Virus record (IMG/VR): IMGVR_UViG_3300020439_002420
Span: 1 to 33,798 of that record
Length of the DNA: 33,798 nucleotides
Strand: one strand, 5' to 3'
Source of the DNA: a virus
Every line of letters starts with the position of its first letter. Position 1 is the first letter of the stretch. Under the pieces are notes generated by a model. It saw nothing but the letters and a program-made list of their open reading frames with translations, had not been told where the DNA came from and did no database searches. A program made the position numbers and the translations under genes. Shown in pieces: positions 74-31,238 of this stretch.

Positions 74-880
74 TTATACATTCGAGATGATCAGCTCACT
101 GGCACGGGTATCCTTCGAATTCTTCCCCGCGATGCTATAATGCAGATCAACCTCAATGAACTTGAAATCTGAAAACAGCTCCCGGATTTTTGCCCGGTCA
201 TTGATGCTCATGACGAATTTGCCTTTGATGCACTTCAGCAGCCGAGCCATATATTCAAAACTGTCCCTGGCAAACATGTCCTTGCCGTAATCTTCCTCAC
301 AATCGAAATAGGGCGGGTCCAGATAAAACAGGACATCTTCCCGATCATATTTCTTGATAAAGTCCGCCCAGTCCAGGCACTCGATCACCACCCCTGCAAG
401 GCGCTCATGAACGTCCTGGAGCATGGGTTCCAGTGTGGTCAGATTGAACCGTCCAGGACGGCCGGGTGACACGCCGAAAGTCTGGCCGGTGACCTTGCCG
501 CCAAATGACGTTTTCTGCAGGTAGAGGAATCGGGCAGCACGCTCCAGATCAGTGAGAGTATTGCTGTCCTGGGCCACCAGGCGCTGGAACTCATCACGGC
601 TGGTGATCTGGTAGCGCAACATCTCAATGAACGGCGTATAGTGCTTATTGAGGATCCGGAACAGGTTAACAACATCCCGGCTATAATCGTTGATCACCTC
701 CGCCTTGGGGATACGGGTTCTCCGGAAGAAAATCCCGCCCATGCCGACAAAGGGCTCCGCATAGGTGGTGTGGTCGATTTCCGCTATCAAAGACACCAGG
801 CGTTTGGCGAGTTTGTTCTTGCCGCCCAGCCAGGGGGCGACGGGTTTTGCCGGGGCGACTGCTTTATACATGGACTCCAT
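74..880 (-). CDS. dam: D12-class DNA N6-adenine methyltransferase (Dam-like)
   Basis: This 268-aa protein should transfer a methyl group from S-adenosylmethionine to adenine N6 in DNA. It has the D12-class order: a PWLGGKNKL segment (about residues 16-24, the PFxWxGGK-type motif), AEPFVGMGG (41-49, the SAM-binding FxGxG motif) and the catalytic DPPY (188-191). Its length is usual for Dam-type enzymes. It is the last gene before the putative phage end, where Mu carries its DNA-modification gene mom, so protection against host restriction is the likely role. A second in-frame ATG lies at 871; neither start has a strong ribosome-binding site. The recognition sequence cannot be read from the sequence; GATC is only the family default. 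Confidence 0.9.
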   Translation of the reverse strand: MESMYKAVAPAKPVAPWLGGKNKLAKRLVSLIAEIDHTTYAEPFVGMGGIFFRRTRIPKAEVINDYSRDVVNLFRILNKHYTPFIEMLRYQITSRDEFQRLVAQDSNTLTDLERAARFLYLQKTSFGGKVTGQTFGVSPGRPGRFNLTTLEPMLQDVHERLAGVVIECLDWADFIKKYDREDVLFYLDPPYFDCEEDYGKDMFARDSFEYMARLLKCIKGKFVMSINDRAKIRELFSDFKFIEVDLHYSIAGKNSKDTRASELIISNV

Positions 881-908: not shown

Positions 909-990
909 GATCCGCTGGGTCGATAAGTGGGGGGCGGGTTATCCCGTGCAGTGGTTGTGCACTGCGGTTCGGATCGTTGCCGCGATCCGA
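909..990. promoter_or_regulatory. Intergenic segment with two hairpins and three GATC sites ahead of the methylase gene
   Basis: The 121-bp gap between the acyltransferase-like gene and the methylase holds two adjacent perfect inverted repeats: GCAGTG/CACTGC (948-953 with 960-965) and TCGGATCG/CGATCCGA (969-976 with 983-990). Three GATC sites fall at 909-912, 972-975 and 984-987, two of them inside the second stem. No T-tract follows on the minus strand, so this is not an obvious Rho-independent terminator. It may be a processing or translational control element, or an autoregulatory site for the methylase. GATC looks common throughout this G+C-rich sequence, so the clustering may be chance. 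Confidence 0.35.
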
Positions 991-1001
991 CCCCCTGCCT
1001 A

Positions 1002-1523
1002 CTAAGGAGCAGAGGTTTTTCCTTCAAATCTCATCAGCCACCTCCTCCCCTTACAGTCCACCACCGGCCCGCAGCGCACCATATTGAAGCCGGCGCGGCG
1101 GAGGACCCGTTGCAGGCTGGGGCGCATCAGGGCCAACACCTCCTGCGCCTGATGCAGGTTGCGCAAATAATCCAGGCCGGCGGCCAGGAACTTACACACT
1201 TTGACCCGGTCAAGCGCCGGGTGGCCGGCTTTGGGAGAAGGCATACATAGCCGGCTGACCTCCATCGCGCCTTCTGACAGCTGATAGTCTGGTAGATATT
1301 TCTTTAAAGGCAAGTCCGGGCCGAGACACAGCCGGGCGGTGGCCACGGGCCATTCCTCAAAAAAAACCAGCACATGGGCTGCCCGGCGGTCATATCCGTC
1401 CGTCTCTATTGCGCCCAGGTCCAGCGGCTCCCAGGGGCGCTCCTCGGCAAAATGCCGGTGCCGCAGGTGGCGCGCGGCATCAATCAGTTCTGGCGTATCC
1501 GCAATCATAAAATACAACCCCAT
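1002..1523 (-). CDS. LuxI-type (autoinducer synthase-like) GNAT-fold acyltransferase
   Basis: The 173-aa product carries the pattern of acyl-homoserine-lactone synthases: R21, F25 and W31 (in RHRHF...W), E40-x-D42-x-Y-D45, R64 (TARL) and E88-V-S90-R91. From memory of EsaI (R24, F28, W34, D45, D48, R68, E97, S99, R100) the first five are offset by a constant three residues, and the E-x-S-R spacing is kept. Such enzymes take an acyl chain from acyl-ACP or acyl-CoA and pass it to S-adenosylmethionine or, in FeeM-type relatives, an amino acid. The gene is tail-proximal, its start overlaps the previous stop (TAATG), and GGGAGA precedes the ATG. The substrate is unknown. Mu Mom is also predicted to have a GNAT fold and sits at the same genomic place, so a nucleic-acid role is the main alternative. 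Confidence 0.75.
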   Translation of the reverse strand: MGLYFMIADTPELIDAARHLRHRHFAEERPWEPLDLGAIETDGYDRRAAHVLVFFEEWPVATARLCLGPDLPLKKYLPDYQLSEGAMEVSRLCMPSPKAGHPALDRVKVCKFLAAGLDYLRNLHQAQEVLALMRPSLQRVLRRAGFNMVRCGPVVDCKGRRWLMRFEGKTSAP

Positions 1524-2302
1524 TAGACCATCTCCCGTATATTGATCGTGGTCTGATATTCATTGAGCATTTTGCGGAATGTGGGCTGGCCCACATCCAG
1601 CACGCCATAAATCAACTGCCGCTGGACATAATCATGATCCATGTCCGGGATCATCAAGACCGCTCGGCCAACGGCGCGCTCGCTGAGCGCATAATAGTCG
1701 GTCCAGGCCTCGTCCTCGGTGAGGTAGCTGAGCTTGGTCTGGAATCCCCGACACGCCCCGCTGGGCGCCGGAATGAACGCGCCGCTGCTTAACTGGGTGC
1801 CCGATCCGGTCTTGATATAACGATAATCCGCCTTCCAGCCCATATTCCAGGTGGGCTGAAACGCCGGACCGATGATCAGCCGGCCCAACTGCAACAGCCC
1901 GCCGGGCACCGTACCGCCCAGCACCTTGACCTGCCACCATCGATACGCCGGCGGCGCGGTGAGGTGGGCAAGGCCGTGCGCCCGACCGTCCTCGCGGATC
2001 ACCGTGCCGTTGCGAAATGGCCCTGACGCCTTGATCACTGTACCGGTGGCGAGCCCGCCTTGCGTCGCCGCGGCGCGGATCTCCCATGTGGCGTCAGGCC
2101 CCGCATTGGTATAAAGGAGAGCAATCAGGTCCGGCGCCATCGCCTGGCCCAGGTCAATCTGTAGCGTGGCGTCGGCCGTCGTGCTCTGGTGGATGTCGCG
2201 GGGTTGTTGAGCGGCAAGCATCGTCGCCGGCATATCCGCATGTTCGCCGATCGTGTTGACGACGTCATAATCGTAGGAATCTGCAAGTATTATGGTGCCC
2301 AT
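1523..2302 (-). CDS. Putative minor tail or tail-tip protein
   Basis: This 259-aa protein has no family I recognise. It starts with a beta-rich segment followed by a jelly-roll-like stretch (repeated beta hydrophobic patterns, a WEIRAAAT segment and a RWWQVKV segment near residues 120-127) that resembles discoidin-type carbohydrate-binding domains. The C-terminal half is rich in Y, W and D. GTG at 2305 and ATG at 2302 are both in frame; the ATG is preferred. It lies between a tail-region protein and the LuxI-like gene in a continuous run with overlapping ends, so a distal tail role is inferred from position. Confidence 0.55.
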   Translation of the reverse strand: MGTIILADSYDYDVVNTIGEHADMPATMLAAQQPRDIHQSTTADATLQIDLGQAMAPDLIALLYTNAGPDATWEIRAAATQGGLATGTVIKASGPFRNGTVIREDGRAHGLAHLTAPPAYRWWQVKVLGGTVPGGLLQLGRLIIGPAFQPTWNMGWKADYRYIKTGSGTQLSSGAFIPAPSGACRGFQTKLSYLTEDEAWTDYYALSERAVGRAVLMIPDMDHDYVQRQLIYGVLDVGQPTFRKMLNEYQTTINIREMV

Positions 2303-2306
2303 CACT

Positions 2307-3232: not shown

Positions 3233-3556
3233 TTAAAAATTCGCATAGGGCGCGAGCCAGATCGTGCCCGGCTTGACGACCCCGGTCGGCGCCGGATTAA
3301 ACGGATCGCCGGTCGGGTCCAGCGCCTCGATATCCCCCTCCAAAAGCACCCGCAGCTGCCGCATCACGGTATAGAGTCCCAGAAGCTCCATCTTTTCTTC
3401 GTCCGGCAGATTGACCACCGTGGGGGCGCTCAGGAAATCGCGTGCGTCAAACATGCGATCGAGCTTGGTGATGTCCGTATAAATATCCTCCAGGCCCGCC
3501 GCCATCGCCCGCGCCTTTTGAATGACCATCTGCACATCGCTCTCGTTAACTGTCAT
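3233..3556 (-). CDS. Small protein following the tail tip/fibre gene, unknown
   Basis: The 107-aa protein is mostly helical and acidic in its first 80 residues, then proline-rich with a TIWLAPYANF end. It follows the large tip/fibre gene directly: the stop at 3558 is two bases from its ATG, and TAGGAGC provides the ribosome-binding site. Small proteins in this position are sometimes fibre assembly chaperones, but there is no family signature, so this is position-based inference only. Confidence 0.55.
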   Translation of the reverse strand: MTVNESDVQMVIQKARAMAAGLEDIYTDITKLDRMFDARDFLSAPTVVNLPDEEKMELLGLYTVMRQLRVLLEGDIEALDPTGDPFNPAPTGVVKPGTIWLAPYANF

Positions 3557-3557
3557 T

Positions 3558-6500
3558 TTATGCTCCTATCCCTGAATGTGACCCTGAGCCGGACAGGCTC
3601 AAGATATGACCGTTTTTCTTAATCCCATCACCCTTGGGGCCGCCGGCGCCGCCCGCATAGGTCGCGCCTTGACCTGAGGCTCCGGCCTGCGGCGTAATCC
3701 CGCTCACCCCGCCACCAGTCCCGCCATTGCCGGCGCCGGATGCACCCGCACCCCCGGTGCCGCCGCCGGACGTGGTGCCAGGATTGCCCGCTGTGCCGTC
3801 ACTGCTGCCCGGCGCGTTACCACCAGACCCGCCACCGCCATTGGGCCAGCCGCCACCACCGCCGCCGCCGCCATAAAAGAAATACTCGCCGCCGGAAAAT
3901 ATGCGCGCGCCGCCACCACCACCGCCGCCGCCGGATCCGCCGGAAATCACCCCATTATTAACCAGTGTAAGATCCTCATTAAGTATCACTCCATGCCCGC
4001 CTGGACCGCCATTACCGCCCGCCTGAGTACCACCACCAGACCCGCCATTGCCGCCGGCGCCCCGGATTGTGACCCCGGTATTAATGTTGAGTGTTAAATT
4101 TATGGTCGCGGCCGCGGGCCAGACGCCGGTATCAATGGCATTGCCGCTTGTTGCAGTGATGCTATTGCTTACAGTGACCGTAAAATTAACGTCCGACTGG
4201 CCGTCATACCCCAGCGAATCCGCAAGCGTGCGCATATTAAGTGGCTGACCATTGTTATGTGTTGCGGATGCTGTAAATGCCGACGGCGGATCGCCGCTGT
4301 CGCCCTTGCCGCTGATCAGGTCCCACACACTGTTCGAGCTGTTGCTCGCGGGCGGCGCGACGCCGGTGATGCCGGCCGAATTGGTGCTGGTGCAGATGAA
4401 AAAGCGTTCCTGATAGCTCACCGTCTGGCCCAGATAATAGGTCGCGGCCGCCGAATACACGCCGCGATAATCGGCCTTATACAGCTCTGGTGCGGTCCAG
4501 TCGGCCTGAATTGACCCGTCGCCATTTTTAATGGCCCGGCTCACCCATGTGGTGCCGGCGCCGGGCACATCCTGCCAGCCCACAGGATTTTCGCCGCTCG
4601 GCGTGCCGGGCTTTGTAGCACTCACATAAAATTTAAAATCGGTATAGCGGCCCTCATTCCCTACCGCACCTTGGGGCCCAAAGGCAATATTTGTCGCCTT
4701 AGTTCCGACTGCAGACAACGCGGCGTCCAGGTAAAGCTTAAGCCCCTCCGGAGCGGCGACCTCTCTCTTCAGGACGCCGTCCATATAATATCGGACATAG
4801 GCCCCATCATATGTAATCGAGAATACAGTATCATCTGGGCTATATGATCCGAAACCACCCTTCGGTGCGCCGCTCTCATAGATGTAAGCGCTGCCGTCCA
4901 AATGTATGTACCAGGCATAATCCAGCGACGTGTAATTAGAATCCAGTTCCGGGTCTGTGTTCAGTCCGAGCATATAATGTCCGACAGACCCTGTTTTAAA
5001 CGTGACATATGCCCCGTTTACATGAGCTTCTTCGCTCCGCGCCCCGGATGTCCCCCACACGCTGCTGCCTGTGATCTTCTCAATAATATTTGACTTTGTA
5101 ATAACCCCGGTACCTGTTGGTACGAGCGTAAAATTCGCCGGGCCCTCGATGCGCGACCAGGCATAATCCGCCGGATTTGTGCTCTCGGTCGGGGCGCTCT
5201 TGTTATAGGCGAGCCCGATATAGGTCCGCGACCCCGGGGCGCCGTTGGTAAAATTGATGGTTCCGTCCGCGCTGTCGGCATAGGCGATCCAGGTATATAG
5301 TGACTGACCGTCCGATCCCGCCGGACCCTGGATGCCTTGCGGACCCTGGTCCCCGTCCGCGCCCTTGATCAGGGACCAGGCATAATCGGCTGGATTTGCG
5401 CTTTCCGTCGCCGATGTTTTATTATAAGCCACCCCGATATAGGTCCGCGCGCCGGGCGCACCGTTGGTAAAATTCAGCGTGCCATCGGCGCTATCGGCAT
5501 AGGCGATCCAGGTGTATAGCGATTGCCCGTCCGCGCCCGCCGGCCCCTGAATGCCTTCTGGGCCTTGCTCGCCAACCAATCGGATCGCATTAGTCCACGT
5601 CCCCCCCTCGCCGATCTTGTGACGCATATAAATATCGCCGTCGGTGAACGTGCTATGCCATCCCGACACCCCGTCGACCGAATACTCGGTGATCAGGCCG
5701 TCTCCGTCCGCGCCCGCCGGCCCATCAGGCCCCCGTAAATTCCCGCGCAGCGTCCAGGAGAGCACCCCGGTTTTTTCATAAAAATCGCCGCCCGTCTGGT
5801 CCAGATAATAATCCCCCAGGCTGCCGAGCGATCCGGCCGGCGCGCCGGTGCCGTTATGCCATTCGGCACCTGTCCGGCTCACAATCTCCGCCTGACTATG
5901 CACGCGATAGGTAGGCTCAAAGCTGTGTTTTAATTGCCAGACAGGCGGCAGAGTTACCTGCCGTTGCAGCTGATGCAGATGCCGATCGTCCAGGGTTTTT
6001 ACCGCTGCGCCAAAATCGACGATATCCAGGATAATCTTACCGTTCCAGTCCACATACCAATAGCCGCCCACCGAGCGCATCACCGCATCCAGCGCCTGGG
6101 CGCCGGATATGGCGGACGCCATATGCAGGCCCACCGTCGCCGTAGTCTTGCCATTCAGCGCCGCGACCATGCCGGGATCCAGGGTGATGTCCTCCATGTC
6201 CGTGAACTCCAGCAGCCGCGCAATCATGTCGCCCGCAGAGCTGACATAGCCGCCTGTGCTATCCCCGCGCACGTCTGCGGTGATCAACCCTGCGGGCAGC
6301 GCCCCGAGGCGGAAAAGGCCCTTGCTCAGGTCGGTCTTGTATTTACCCGGCAGCGGCGTCCAGGCCGCAAGATCGGTTGTATCTCCATCGCTGATCAGCG
6401 GGGCGGCCATGTCATACACCCCGTCAATCGCCTGGACGCTGCGAAAATGCACCTGATAAATCAGGTCCGTGGCATCCACCAGCACCGGCTCCATATTAAA

Positions 6501-6995
6501 GACCTGGCCAAACGTCGCCGGTTTTTGAATATCTTTTAAATCCACCGGCCCTTCGGCGCCGCCGGCGCCCGTATAGGCCGGGAGGGAGAGCGGAGCGTCA
6601 AATCGCGCGGAGAAGTCGCTTAAACTGAGGATCATTTCCGCCTCGTTAAAGCTCATATCCTCCACAGGCCCCGAATAGCGCAACACATAGGCCCCGAAAT
6701 CATCCCCGTCGCCGACCCAGATGCGCACGCGAAAGCCGGTATAATGATATTGAGTCACCTCATCCATGGCGCCGTCCGATATCAAGACGGCGAGCTGGCC
6801 GACGCTGGGCGCGCTGCCGGCGCCCTCGAACTCGTCCAGGAAGATTTCGCGGCCGAATGAGACATCCCCCTTCAACCGGTCGCGCCAGAGCATGCCATTG
6901 ATCACTGCCGGGCCCGGCGCGCCATGGCTGAACCGCAGGACCTCCTCGGCCCCGGCCGCCGGATTATAACAGGTGATTTCGGCGAGGATAATCAT
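3558..6995 (-). CDS. Large tail tip/fibre protein with collagen-like, lectin-like and glycine-rich regions
   Basis: This 1145-aa protein is likely the tail-tip or receptor-binding protein. Residues 1-370 form a structural N-terminal region of the type that follows the tape measure in siphovirus tails. Gly-X-Y collagen-like runs occur near residues 421-431, 478-490 and 551-563; the last two begin two nearly identical 73-residue modules. Residues about 630-780 look like a beta-sandwich lectin domain (tryptophan, tyrosine and DGVLKREV-type strands). The last 160 residues are extremely glycine-rich with N, S and aromatic interruptions, recalling polyglycine-II adhesin tips of some phages. Its ATG overlaps the tape-measure stop (ATGA). 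Tip assignment comes from position and composition, not from a recognised catalytic motif. Confidence 0.75.
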   Translation of the reverse strand: MIILAEITCYNPAAGAEEVLRFSHGAPGPAVINGMLWRDRLKGDVSFGREIFLDEFEGAGSAPSVGQLAVLISDGAMDEVTQYHYTGFRVRIWVGDGDDFGAYVLRYSGPVEDMSFNEAEMILSLSDFSARFDAPLSLPAYTGAGGAEGPVDLKDIQKPATFGQVFNMEPVLVDATDLIYQVHFRSVQAIDGVYDMAAPLISDGDTTDLAAWTPLPGKYKTDLSKGLFRLGALPAGLITADVRGDSTGGYVSSAGDMIARLLEFTDMEDITLDPGMVAALNGKTTATVGLHMASAISGAQALDAVMRSVGGYWYVDWNGKIILDIVDFGAAVKTLDDRHLHQLQRQVTLPPVWQLKHSFEPTYRVHSQAEIVSRTGAEWHNGTGAPAGSLGSLGDYYLDQTGGDFYEKTGVLSWTLRGNLRGPDGPAGADGDGLITEYSVDGVSGWHSTFTDGDIYMRHKIGEGGTWTNAIRLVGEQGPEGIQGPAGADGQSLYTWIAYADSADGTLNFTNGAPGARTYIGVAYNKTSATESANPADYAWSLIKGADGDQGPQGIQGPAGSDGQSLYTWIAYADSADGTINFTNGAPGSRTYIGLAYNKSAPTESTNPADYAWSRIEGPANFTLVPTGTGVITKSNIIEKITGSSVWGTSGARSEEAHVNGAYVTFKTGSVGHYMLGLNTDPELDSNYTSLDYAWYIHLDGSAYIYESGAPKGGFGSYSPDDTVFSITYDGAYVRYYMDGVLKREVAAPEGLKLYLDAALSAVGTKATNIAFGPQGAVGNEGRYTDFKFYVSATKPGTPSGENPVGWQDVPGAGTTWVSRAIKNGDGSIQADWTAPELYKADYRGVYSAAATYYLGQTVSYQERFFICTSTNSAGITGVAPPASNSSNSVWDLISGKGDSGDPPSAFTASATHNNGQPLNMRTLADSLGYDGQSDVNFTVTVSNSITATSGNAIDTGVWPAAATINLTLNINTGVTIRGAGGNGGSGGGTQAGGNGGPGGHGVILNEDLTLVNNGVISGGSGGGGGGGGARIFSGGEYFFYGGGGGGGGWPNGGGGSGGNAPGSSDGTAGNPGTTSGGGTGGAGASGAGNGGTGGGVSGITPQAGASGQGATYAGGAGGPKGDGIKKNGHILSLSGSGSHSGIGA
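5127..5564 (-). repeat. Two tandem 219-bp units (73 aa each) in the tail tip gene
   Basis: Residues 478-550 and 551-623 of the tip protein are a direct duplication with exact 73-residue period. Each starts with a GPxGIQGPAG collagen-like run, then DGQSLYTWIAYADSADGT, a NFTNGAPG loop, a TYIG strand and ends with PADYAWS. Nucleotide identity is also high, so the duplication is fairly recent or kept alike by recombination. Confidence 0.9.
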
Positions 6996-17810: not shown

Positions 17811-18134
17811 TCAAGAGATGTTAAAATACGCTGCGGCCTCGCGACCGCGGAATGTCTCCCCGTCCGCGGCGGCGGTAAGCGTGGCAGGATCAATCTTCAC
17901 CAGATCCGCTTCCATAAGGTTTCTTGAAAAATGGAAAGACAGGGAAAACCCCAGAATGAAGGCTTTCTGTTCTTCGGGTGTCAGAGCCGCAAATTGCGTT
18001 GACTGAAAAACATTCCGGGTCAACAAAACATCGCCCATCTTCTTGACCTCCTGATAGAGGACATAAAGCTGGCGCTGGATATTTTCTGACTGTGCTTTTA
18101 TGGCATCAAAGTCTTTTTGTCTCAAATCTGGCAT
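17811..18134 (-). CDS. Small helical protein of the head cluster, unknown
   Basis: The 107-aa product is helical: residues 6-45 (FDAIKAQSENIQRQLYVLYQ) look like a coiled coil and LTPEEQKAFILGF resembles a helix-turn. TGAGGATTTTTGA supplies the ribosome-binding site just downstream of a strong G+C-rich hairpin. It precedes the beta-helix gene by eight bases, so it may be a partner or assembly factor for it. There is no recognised family. Confidence 0.55.
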   Translation of the reverse strand: MPDLRQKDFDAIKAQSENIQRQLYVLYQEVKKMGDVLLTRNVFQSTQFAALTPEEQKAFILGFSLSFHFSRNLMEADLVKIDPATLTAAADGETFRGREAAAYFNIS

Positions 18135-28774: not shown

Positions 28775-29170
28775 TCAGAAAAGGTTGCCCTGGCCATCAT
28801 CTGAGCCAGACCCGTTTTTATGACGCCGGACGGTGCGGATGTCGCAACCCACGTCCCGCGCGATGGCCGCATTTGACCGGCCCGCGTCCAGACCTTCATG
28901 GATCCGCTGCGCTGTGGTCCGGATCAACTGGTTATAGGAGCTCGCCGGGCCCAGCGGCACGGCGAACTTGCCGACGCCGAAGTGATCCTGCATTTTTTGC
29001 GCCGCCTCAAGCCCGATACAGTCCACAAGCCGCACTCCCGGGCGAATCTTTTTAGGAATATCCACTTCGGTGCCACCAAAGGCGTGCGCCAGCTTCAGCG
29101 TGGCCGGAAACCCGATCACATCGCAAATCTCACGCAGTTTCGGGGATAAATGGACTTTATGAGGCTGCAT
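28775..29170 (-). CDS. mor: Mor/C-family transcription activator
   Basis: The 131-aa protein matches the Mor family, which activates middle or late phage promoters. The N-terminal dimerisation part reads LSPKLREICDVIGFPATLKLAHAFGGTEVDIP (about residues 8-39); the C-terminal helix-turn-helix is GLDAGRSNAAIARDVGCDIRTVRRHKN (about 92-118), followed by an acidic tail. It lies between the early genes and the lysis operon, as in Mu, B3 and D3112. A dyad upstream of a -35 box 0.3 kb downstream is a natural target. AGGTAGAA precedes the ATG. Mu has separate mor and C genes; only one such gene is seen here. Confidence 0.92.
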   Translation of the reverse strand: MQPHKVHLSPKLREICDVIGFPATLKLAHAFGGTEVDIPKKIRPGVRLVDCIGLEAAQKMQDHFGVGKFAVPLGPASSYNQLIRTTAQRIHEGLDAGRSNAAIARDVGCDIRTVRRHKNGSGSDDGQGNLF

Positions 29171-30283: not shown

Positions 30284-30907
30284 TCATGAGTTGCGTTCCC
30301 CGTATTTAAAAACTTCATTGCCGAAGCTGTCCCAACCGCGCCGGGTGTTCCGCGCGAACAATTCCAGGTAGGGGCCGTCCACCAGCCGCTCGATGCGCTC
30401 ATAGGCTTCTATGGGTTTCTGGGACTTGTCGGCGCCGCTGCCGGCGATCAGCAATTCACGGACATTCCTGGCATCCGGTCTGCGGGCGATATCGCCCATG
30501 GTGCCGATCAGGCAATGTTCCGTGTTTTGCCGGGTCCAGTAGCCGTTATTCATGCGCCAGTTGAATTCATCTTTCAAAGGCCGCACAGGATCACCATTCA
30601 ACCCCTGTTTCGTGGCTTTCGCCCAGGTAAATCCGACCGCCTTGTATTTAAATCCCCAGGCCCGCATGACCGCCAGGCCGTCCGGCAACATCGGGTTGGT
30701 CACCCACAAAAATAAGACACAATCCTTTGAGGCCATTTGATGCACAGGCAGGGCCGCAATCTCTGCGGTCGGCATGCAGTCATAATCCTGGTTCGGATTG
30801 CGCCCGTCGCCCTTTTCGCTGCGACTTTCAAAAAGCCACGGCGGATCCGCATAAATCACCCGGTATCTGAGGAGGGAAATCCTGTTGATATCAGTGTAGG
30901 CAGTCAT
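30284..30907 (-). CDS. MT-A70 family adenine N6-methyltransferase
   Basis: The start is placed at 30907 (MTAYTDINRIS), preceded by AAAGGAAAG; a longer reading from 31078 would cover the upstream gene. The 207-aa protein has the MT-A70 motif DPPW (residues 21-24) in YRVIYADPPWLF, the LFLWVTNPMLPDGLAVMRAWGFKYK block and the C-terminal YLELFARNTRRGWDSFGNE segment typical of phage MT-A70 enzymes. It should methylate adenine N6 in DNA, likely to block host restriction. It lies in the early region, unlike the Dam-like enzyme at the right end, so the two may act at different stages or sites. Confidence 0.93.
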   Translation of the reverse strand: MTAYTDINRISLLRYRVIYADPPWLFESRSEKGDGRNPNQDYDCMPTAEIAALPVHQMASKDCVLFLWVTNPMLPDGLAVMRAWGFKYKAVGFTWAKATKQGLNGDPVRPLKDEFNWRMNNGYWTRQNTEHCLIGTMGDIARRPDARNVRELLIAGSGADKSQKPIEAYERIERLVDGPYLELFARNTRRGWDSFGNEVFKYGERNS

Positions 30908-31238
30908 CTCTTTCCTTTTCCCCATCTCTTTCTTTTTCAAGCGAACTGAATTCCAGGCATTTTGACGAACTGCTGAGGCACGCCACCAGGTCGCGGTGTT
31001 TGCCGCCGGCCCGGATCCAGGCGCGGACCAGGCGTTCCGGGTCCTGCGGCAAGCCGCCGCCGGCGTCTCCCCCGGCAATCTCGGCCCTGGCCAGGGCGCT
31101 CGCCCGGCAAATCGCGGCGATAAGCCCCGAGCGTCGCGCCCTCTCCCCCGCGCGCCCCGACAGCAGCGATCCGGACAACAAGGCCAGATCCAGTAGCGCC
31201 TGACGCAATTCTTCGGGGGTGGTGCGCGCGGGCGTCAT
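30891..31238 (-). CDS. Helical 115-aa early protein, unknown
   Basis: The start at 31238 (MTPARTTPEELRQALLDLALLSG) is preferred because GGGAGGG precedes it. The product is alanine-, arginine- and leucine-rich and probably all-helical, with a serine-rich patch (CLSSSSKCLEFSSLEK) and a charged end (KERDGEKERDD). Its 3' end overlaps the methyltransferase start by 17 bases. I do not recognise it; conserved phage genes of this size in the region often act on host functions. Confidence 0.55.
   Translation of the reverse strand: MTPARTTPEELRQALLDLALLSGSLLSGRAGERARRSGLIAAICRASALARAEIAGGDAGGGLPQDPERLVRAWIRAGGKHRDLVACLSSSSKCLEFSSLEKERDGEKERDDCLH

Follow-up and report, generated by a model that had tools for sequence, protein, structure and literature searches.

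A putative late N-acyltransferase of the LuxI and N-acyl amino acid synthase superclade in Mu-like phages

The OlsB/N-acyl synthase family (PF13444) and the exosortase-associated enzymes are known for producing N-acyl amino acids and lyso-aminolipids (PMC11631085, PMC9762135). As for phages, luxI systems were found in 53 out of 93 unique putative Roseobacter prophages of one data set, and xre-luxR-luxI modules are a known phage arrangement (PMC13345283). The gp44 protein of roseophage R26L is annotated as an acyl-homoserine lactone (AHL) synthase (PMC11981692). The same annotation is carried by gp55 of roseophage RDJL Phi 2. Thus, the statement that AHL synthases are very rarely reported in phages, made in an earlier interpretation of the DNA studied here (the sequence-only reading), is dated. 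A cognate LuxR gene nearby is usual for LuxI, though not obligatory. What is new in the present case is a divergent, N-acyl synthase-like member of the group, carried by Mu-like phages as a late accessory gene without a receptor.

The window, that is, the whole stretch of DNA that was analysed, is a virus record of 33,798 bases, and its first base is the phage terminus TGTAGC. It was compared with a sister, the Mu-like prophage G006 (IMG/VR contig 3300027980_000057), which is collinear with it over nearly its whole length. The following features of the window are considered:

1–60, no strand assigned: phage terminus (TGTAGC...) with two GGGACARTTTT copies, matching the phage/host boundary of the sister
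74–880, minus strand: D12-class N6-adenine DNA methyltransferase (Dam-like), downstream of the acyltransferase (PF02086 E 7.7e-28; phrog_56 E 9.9e-86)
910–1018, minus strand: structured non-coding element of four hairpins, between the acyltransferase and dam (covariation; covariance-model matches)
1002–1523, minus strand: acyltransferase, a 173-aa GNAT of the LuxI / N-acyl amino acid synthase superclade (profile scores, predicted fold, syntenic homologue)
1523–2305, minus strand: 260-aa tail-region gene (phrog_8610 E 8.4e-25)
28775–29170, minus strand: late transcriptional activator of the Mor/C type, putative driver of the late operon (phrog_836 E 3.7e-24)

The large terminase is about 50% identical to those of Mu-like phages, and Pfam-type matches to Phage_Mu_Gp36 and Phage_tail_S were found in the window. 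Together with the Mor/C activator and the MuA- and MuB-like ORFs read from the sequence of the sister, these allow us to call the genome Mu-like, as had been proposed. At its other end, the window breaks off within a MuB-like gene and so lacks a repressor end of its own; this region is covered by the sister record.

Additionally, a second DNA methyltransferase (phrog_359) lies in the early region (30284–31078, minus strand), besides the D12 enzyme of the right end. The 613-aa PHROG family phrog_8917 is split in the window between 2307–2660 and 3558–6995 (minus strand): its N-terminal part starts a 1145-aa fibre-like protein, its C-terminal part is a separate 117-aa gene, and two genes lie between them. 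A 107-aa protein (3233–3556, minus strand) yielded no PHROG or Pfam match, yet at 77% identity it is among the best conserved proteins between the two phages, above the capsid; it has a weak paralogue at 17811–18134.

The acyltransferase ORF begins with ATG, is uninterrupted, and is the last gene of the late tail operon. The stop codon of the 260-aa tail-region gene overlaps its start (TAATG), which bears out the proposed link to the tail genes, and the two genes are probably translationally coupled. The tail-region gene itself yielded no match among phages by tblastn, and its predicted structure has a pLDDT of 31. In the sister, the same order of tail-region gene, acyltransferase (again with an overlapping start) and dam was observed. 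The acyltransferases of the two phages, found in the same place, share 55% protein identity, and the Dam-like proteins 68%.

By the Nei-Gojobori method, the acyltransferase pair shows a dN of about 0.40, with dS saturated near 2. The low dN against a saturated dS shows that the gene is held by purifying selection. For comparison, dN is 0.55 for the coupled tail gene and 0.21–0.23 for capsid, terminase and dam; the acyltransferase thus evolves no faster than the tail gene that flanks it.

In three relatives the slot is empty, and dam directly follows a tail fibre gene: the Sinorhizobium phages StopSmel (fibre L014:2499-4523, dam L014:1555-2358) and Aussie (L048:2041-3750 and L048:1090-1893), and G004, where the ORF upstream of dam was taken as a tail fibre by position only. 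We conclude that the acyltransferase is an accessory insertion at the right end. A functional link to Dam was set aside, since dam stands without the acyltransferase in all three.

The sequence-only reading regarded nine residues of the intact gene as a LuxI signature. All of them (R21, F25, W31, D42, D45, R64, E88, S90 and R91) are indeed present in the window copy, and all align with counterparts in annotated LuxI/TraI proteins. Their spacing, described as that of the family, agrees with EsaI (R24/F28/W34/D45/D48/R68/E97/S99/R100) exactly through the second Asp, but is then shorter by 1 and 5 residues.

The claim that these residues single out LuxI does not hold, however. R21, E40, D45, R64, E88, S90 and R91 also occur in N-acyl synthase-like proteins and therefore mark the superclade. 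Judged by the alignment, the nine residues as a set would mark a wider GNAT clade made up of LuxI, FeeM, OlsB and the exosortase-linked N-acyl amino acid synthases. W31 and D42 are LuxI-like, the W31 position being F or Y in the three exosortase-type references. At the C-terminus, both phage proteins have G159-x-R161, as do the four N-acyl synthase-like references without exception; the six LuxI proteins all lack it. The familiar LuxI residues, in other words, do not identify a LuxI. The only close homologue, the sister copy, retains seven out of nine of them: F25 is replaced by Tyr, the state of the exosortase group, and S90 by Gly. In EsaI, S90 corresponds to Ser99, which is described as a key residue and as central to the active site (PMC5131480). 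Loss of the listed residues in close homologues was named in the sequence-only reading as evidence that would refute it, so the sister counts in part against that reading.

An ordinary acetyl-CoA N-acetyltransferase of the ElaA type, having kept an ancestral resemblance to LuxI, was also considered. The small size of the protein would suit it, ElaA and other GNAT structures rank close to the predicted model, and ElaA has counterparts of R21, E40, D42, D45, R64 and R91. On the other hand, ElaA is without E88 and W31, and its scores against the N-acyl synthase and LuxI profiles are only 4.5–12.1 bits. Moreover, at GNAT motif A the ElaA control reads RKQGIG, but neither phage protein shows a visible acetyl-CoA loop (R/Q)xxGx(G/A) at this position. 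We consider an ElaA-type enzyme very improbable. The lack of a visible loop favours instead a thioester of a carrier protein as the putative donor.

Among curated families, the best match of the window copy was NCBIfam TIGR03694, the PEP-CTERM/exosortase acyltransferase model (55.7 bits, E=4.8e-15; sister 63.2 bits; cut-off 111.95). The LuxI model PF00765 gave 18.2 bits for the window and 19.2 for the sister, below the gathering cut-off of 24, whereas the positive controls passed it (39.9 bits for RDJL Phi 2 gp55 and 67.9 for the LuxI of a viral contig, G007). The NCBIfam TraI-type AHL synthase models scored 14.6 and 12.1 bits in the window (cut-offs 292 and 250), with 16.4 bits for the sister against a TraI model. 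For FeeM (PF21926, cut-off 27) the scores were 18.0 and 15.5 bits for window and sister, so that LuxI and FeeM are equally sub-threshold for the window copy. In the case of Acetyltransf_5 (PF13444, cut-off 22.4), the window copy stays below with 18.1 bits and the sister passes with 31.4. The OlsB equivalog models left a trace only. The window copy thus reaches no curated cut-off.

It should be noted that TIGR03694 also gives 68 bits to the G007 LuxI that adjoins luxR, and its score alone therefore discriminates little. The families seem to be better separated by profile-profile comparison, in which the phage pair gave E 4.4e-17 (156 columns) against four exosortase-type/N-acyl synthase-like members and E 5.5e-12 (144 columns) against a set of six LuxI proteins. 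This favours the N-acyl amino acid synthases over LuxI, and it agrees with the alternative named in the sequence-only reading, a FeeM- or PEP-CTERM-type acyltransferase, which fits better than its main proposal. In a maximum-likelihood tree with a small reference set, the phage pair was placed on the non-LuxI side with weak support (76/84). In terms of sequence, the protein belongs within the LuxI / FeeM / OlsB / N-acyl amino acid synthase superclade without falling into any of the families named there, and it appears closer to the N-acyl amino acid synthase side than to LuxI.

A divergent LuxI, which would make AHL from SAM and acyl-ACP and either act on a host LuxR or disturb host quorum sensing, could account for the nine residues of the window copy and for its weak PF00765 match. 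It agrees less well with the failure to reach a cut-off that viral LuxI controls pass, and with the Gly and Tyr that the sister has at S90 (EsaI Ser99, PMC5131480) and F25.

The structure predicted with AlphaFold2 from three aligned sequences (pLDDT 74.8, pTM 0.72) has the GNAT order of elements and agrees with solved GNAT structures along most of its length (Z 12.6–16.7). Placement among the GNAT acyltransferases was therefore upheld by both profile and structure searches, with a similarity well beyond what chance would produce. A Foldseek search against the PDB put LasI first (E=6.5e-9), and the best viral structural match was the RDJL Phi 2 AHL synthetase; both would suit a divergent LuxI. 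With VIA-align, FeeM (2g0b) reached a Z of 16.7, LuxI-type TofI 16.5 and LasI 14.5. The modelled fold thus ties LuxI with FeeM and does not appear to separate the two readings.

The mom gene lies at the right end of Mu, and a Mom protein was among the structural matches (rank 36, TM 0.51). Such a match, the neighbouring DNA adenine methylase and, in both phages, the start/stop overlap with a tail-region gene could suggest an enzyme that modifies a macromolecule, acylating either a phage tail protein or, in the manner of Mu Mom, a DNA base. Yet the LuxI and FeeM folds rank far above Mom, the conserved residues match those of acyltransferases that act on small amines, and the three relatives have dam in the same place without the acyltransferase. 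No PHROG family was matched, hence no Mom family. Membership in the family of Mu Mom was set aside for want of a sequence match, and macromolecule modification in general seems rather improbable to us.

No LuxR was detected with PF03472 at E<=10 in the window, as the sequence-only reading had stated, or in the sister prophage, while the same search found it in the control contig G007. On its lysogeny side, the sister has an ORF, read from sequence, for a LexA/S24-like repressor. The lack of a receptor in both phages and the LexA/S24-type repressor of the sister make a phage quorum circuit of the xre-luxR-luxI type unlikely. Phage luxI genes are known, but the late, tail-coupled position of the acyltransferase is unlike that of the described modules (PMC13345283). 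Taken together, these results make a divergent LuxI an unlikely description of the protein.

The control G007 is a 66-kb IMG/VR contig (3300048577_000544) with convergent luxI and luxR genes at L013:5899-6606 (plus strand) and L013:6563-7333 (minus strand), with an SNase gene and a DNA polymerase III beta-clamp domain close by. The luxI product scores 67.9 bits with PF00765 and the luxR product combines GerE with Autoind_bind; the two form a genuine pair for quorum sensing, and the contig that carries them is classed as viral.

Used as a single query, the acyltransferase found no close homologue in IMG/VR or GTDB genomes, nor did a two-sequence alignment query in GTDB genomes; such scans require short exact or degenerate peptide matches and may therefore miss distant relatives. 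The homologues found were the sister prophage, one shorter contig identical to it over the compared part, and the G007 luxI. With tblastn, GenBank phages yielded only ElaA-like matches, in records named Acinetobacter phage MD-2021a. These records (L042; about 254 and 128 kb) carry chromosomal-type genes, e.g., fadJ and lasI, and appear to be bacterial contigs to which a phage name was wrongly given. A related N-acyltransferase gene is present on Alteromonas macleodii plasmids (L002:3950-4606 and L003:3950-4605, both plus strand); it is whole in pMIT1002, and in the annotation of pTE101a it is broken into two shorter pieces.

Between the acyltransferase and dam lies a structured element whose start overlaps the last codons of the acyltransferase. 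The window and the sister share 26 base pairs in it, all standard; 10 are changed on both sides, and no pair with letters on both sides is broken. Folding gave z-scores of -3.3 and -4.2. An alternative partner for the 3′ strand CCCCCyACUUAUCG is AGUAGGCAGGGGG, which belongs to the first hairpin. A covariance model built from the window and the sister, whose E-values are rough, found matches about 55–70 bases upstream of the dam start. The strongest (36.1 bits, E 8e-10) was in Komagataeibacter phage phiKM1, which is unrelated, with weaker ones upstream of dam in StopSmel (23.1 bits, 2e-5) and Aussie (16.4 bits, 0.003). The latter two need care, since the sister also matches itself on the reverse strand, with 24.7 bits. 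Rfam gave no family at its thresholds. We regard the element as a candidate dam-leader RNA, with the following loci:

910-1018, minus strand: window
L012:6505-6614, plus strand: sister
L050:3533-3639, minus strand: phiKM1
L014:2413-2516, minus strand: StopSmel
L048:1963-2058, minus strand: Aussie

The reading that we prefer, and in which we place about even confidence, is that of a putative late-expressed, acyl-ACP-dependent N-acyltransferase that makes an N-acyl amine or amino acid. The enzyme would take a fatty acyl chain from the host acyl carrier protein and attach it to a small amine or an amino acid through the amino group of the latter; E88 would be the likely general base, and R21, W31, D42, D45, R64 and R91 would shape the acceptor and catalytic site. 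Its product may be an N-acyl amine, such as a lyso-aminolipid-like molecule or an acylated signal. Since the late tail operon ends with the gene, which appears translationally coupled to it, production would be expected late in infection. Placed in the right-end slot that precedes dam, this accessory ('moron') gene may change the membranes or the signalling of the host as the cycle ends. If the enzyme is active, the phage would produce a lipid amide late in infection, which would be a kind of host manipulation. More tentatively, and with doubt prevailing, we suggest that a Mu-like phage lineage has a dedicated late enzyme for an N-acyl amine lipid or signal and no phage receptor for it; the product might then be a lipid effector at the host membrane or on neighbouring cells rather than part of a lysis-lysogeny quorum circuit.

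Among known systems, the PEP-CTERM/exosortase acyltransferases (TIGR03694) share the core residues with the phage protein and are its best match by both HMM and profile; the match extends over the two halves and takes in the C-terminal GxR. The phage copy differs in scoring about half of their cut-off, in its length (173 vs about 240 aa) and in its place in a phage late operon. In the case of OlsB and the human-microbiome N-acyl synthases (PF13444), only the sister passes the cut-off. The FeeM N-acyl amino acid synthase (PDB 2g0b, PF21926) gives the highest structural Z and a sequence match as weak as that of LuxI, but at 13% identity, below the cut-off and tied with LuxI structures. The LuxI/TraI proteins (PF00765) have the fold seen in LasI and TofI and the nine residues of the window copy, whereas the phage protein is below their cut-off, has a shorter C-terminal part and no luxR, and its sister is without S90 and F25.

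The best viral structural match, RDJL Phi 2 gp55, is likewise phage-borne, of the same superclade and without an annotated luxR beside it. Unlike the protein described here, it passes PF00765 and gives nothing with the N-acyl synthase profile, and its gene belongs to a non-Mu phage and lies on the opposite strand, between terminase and head genes. Phage LuxI was previously known as part of lysogeny circuits with LuxR partners; the present protein suggests that phages also carry the N-acyl amino acid synthase-like branch, as late, receptor-less accessory genes.
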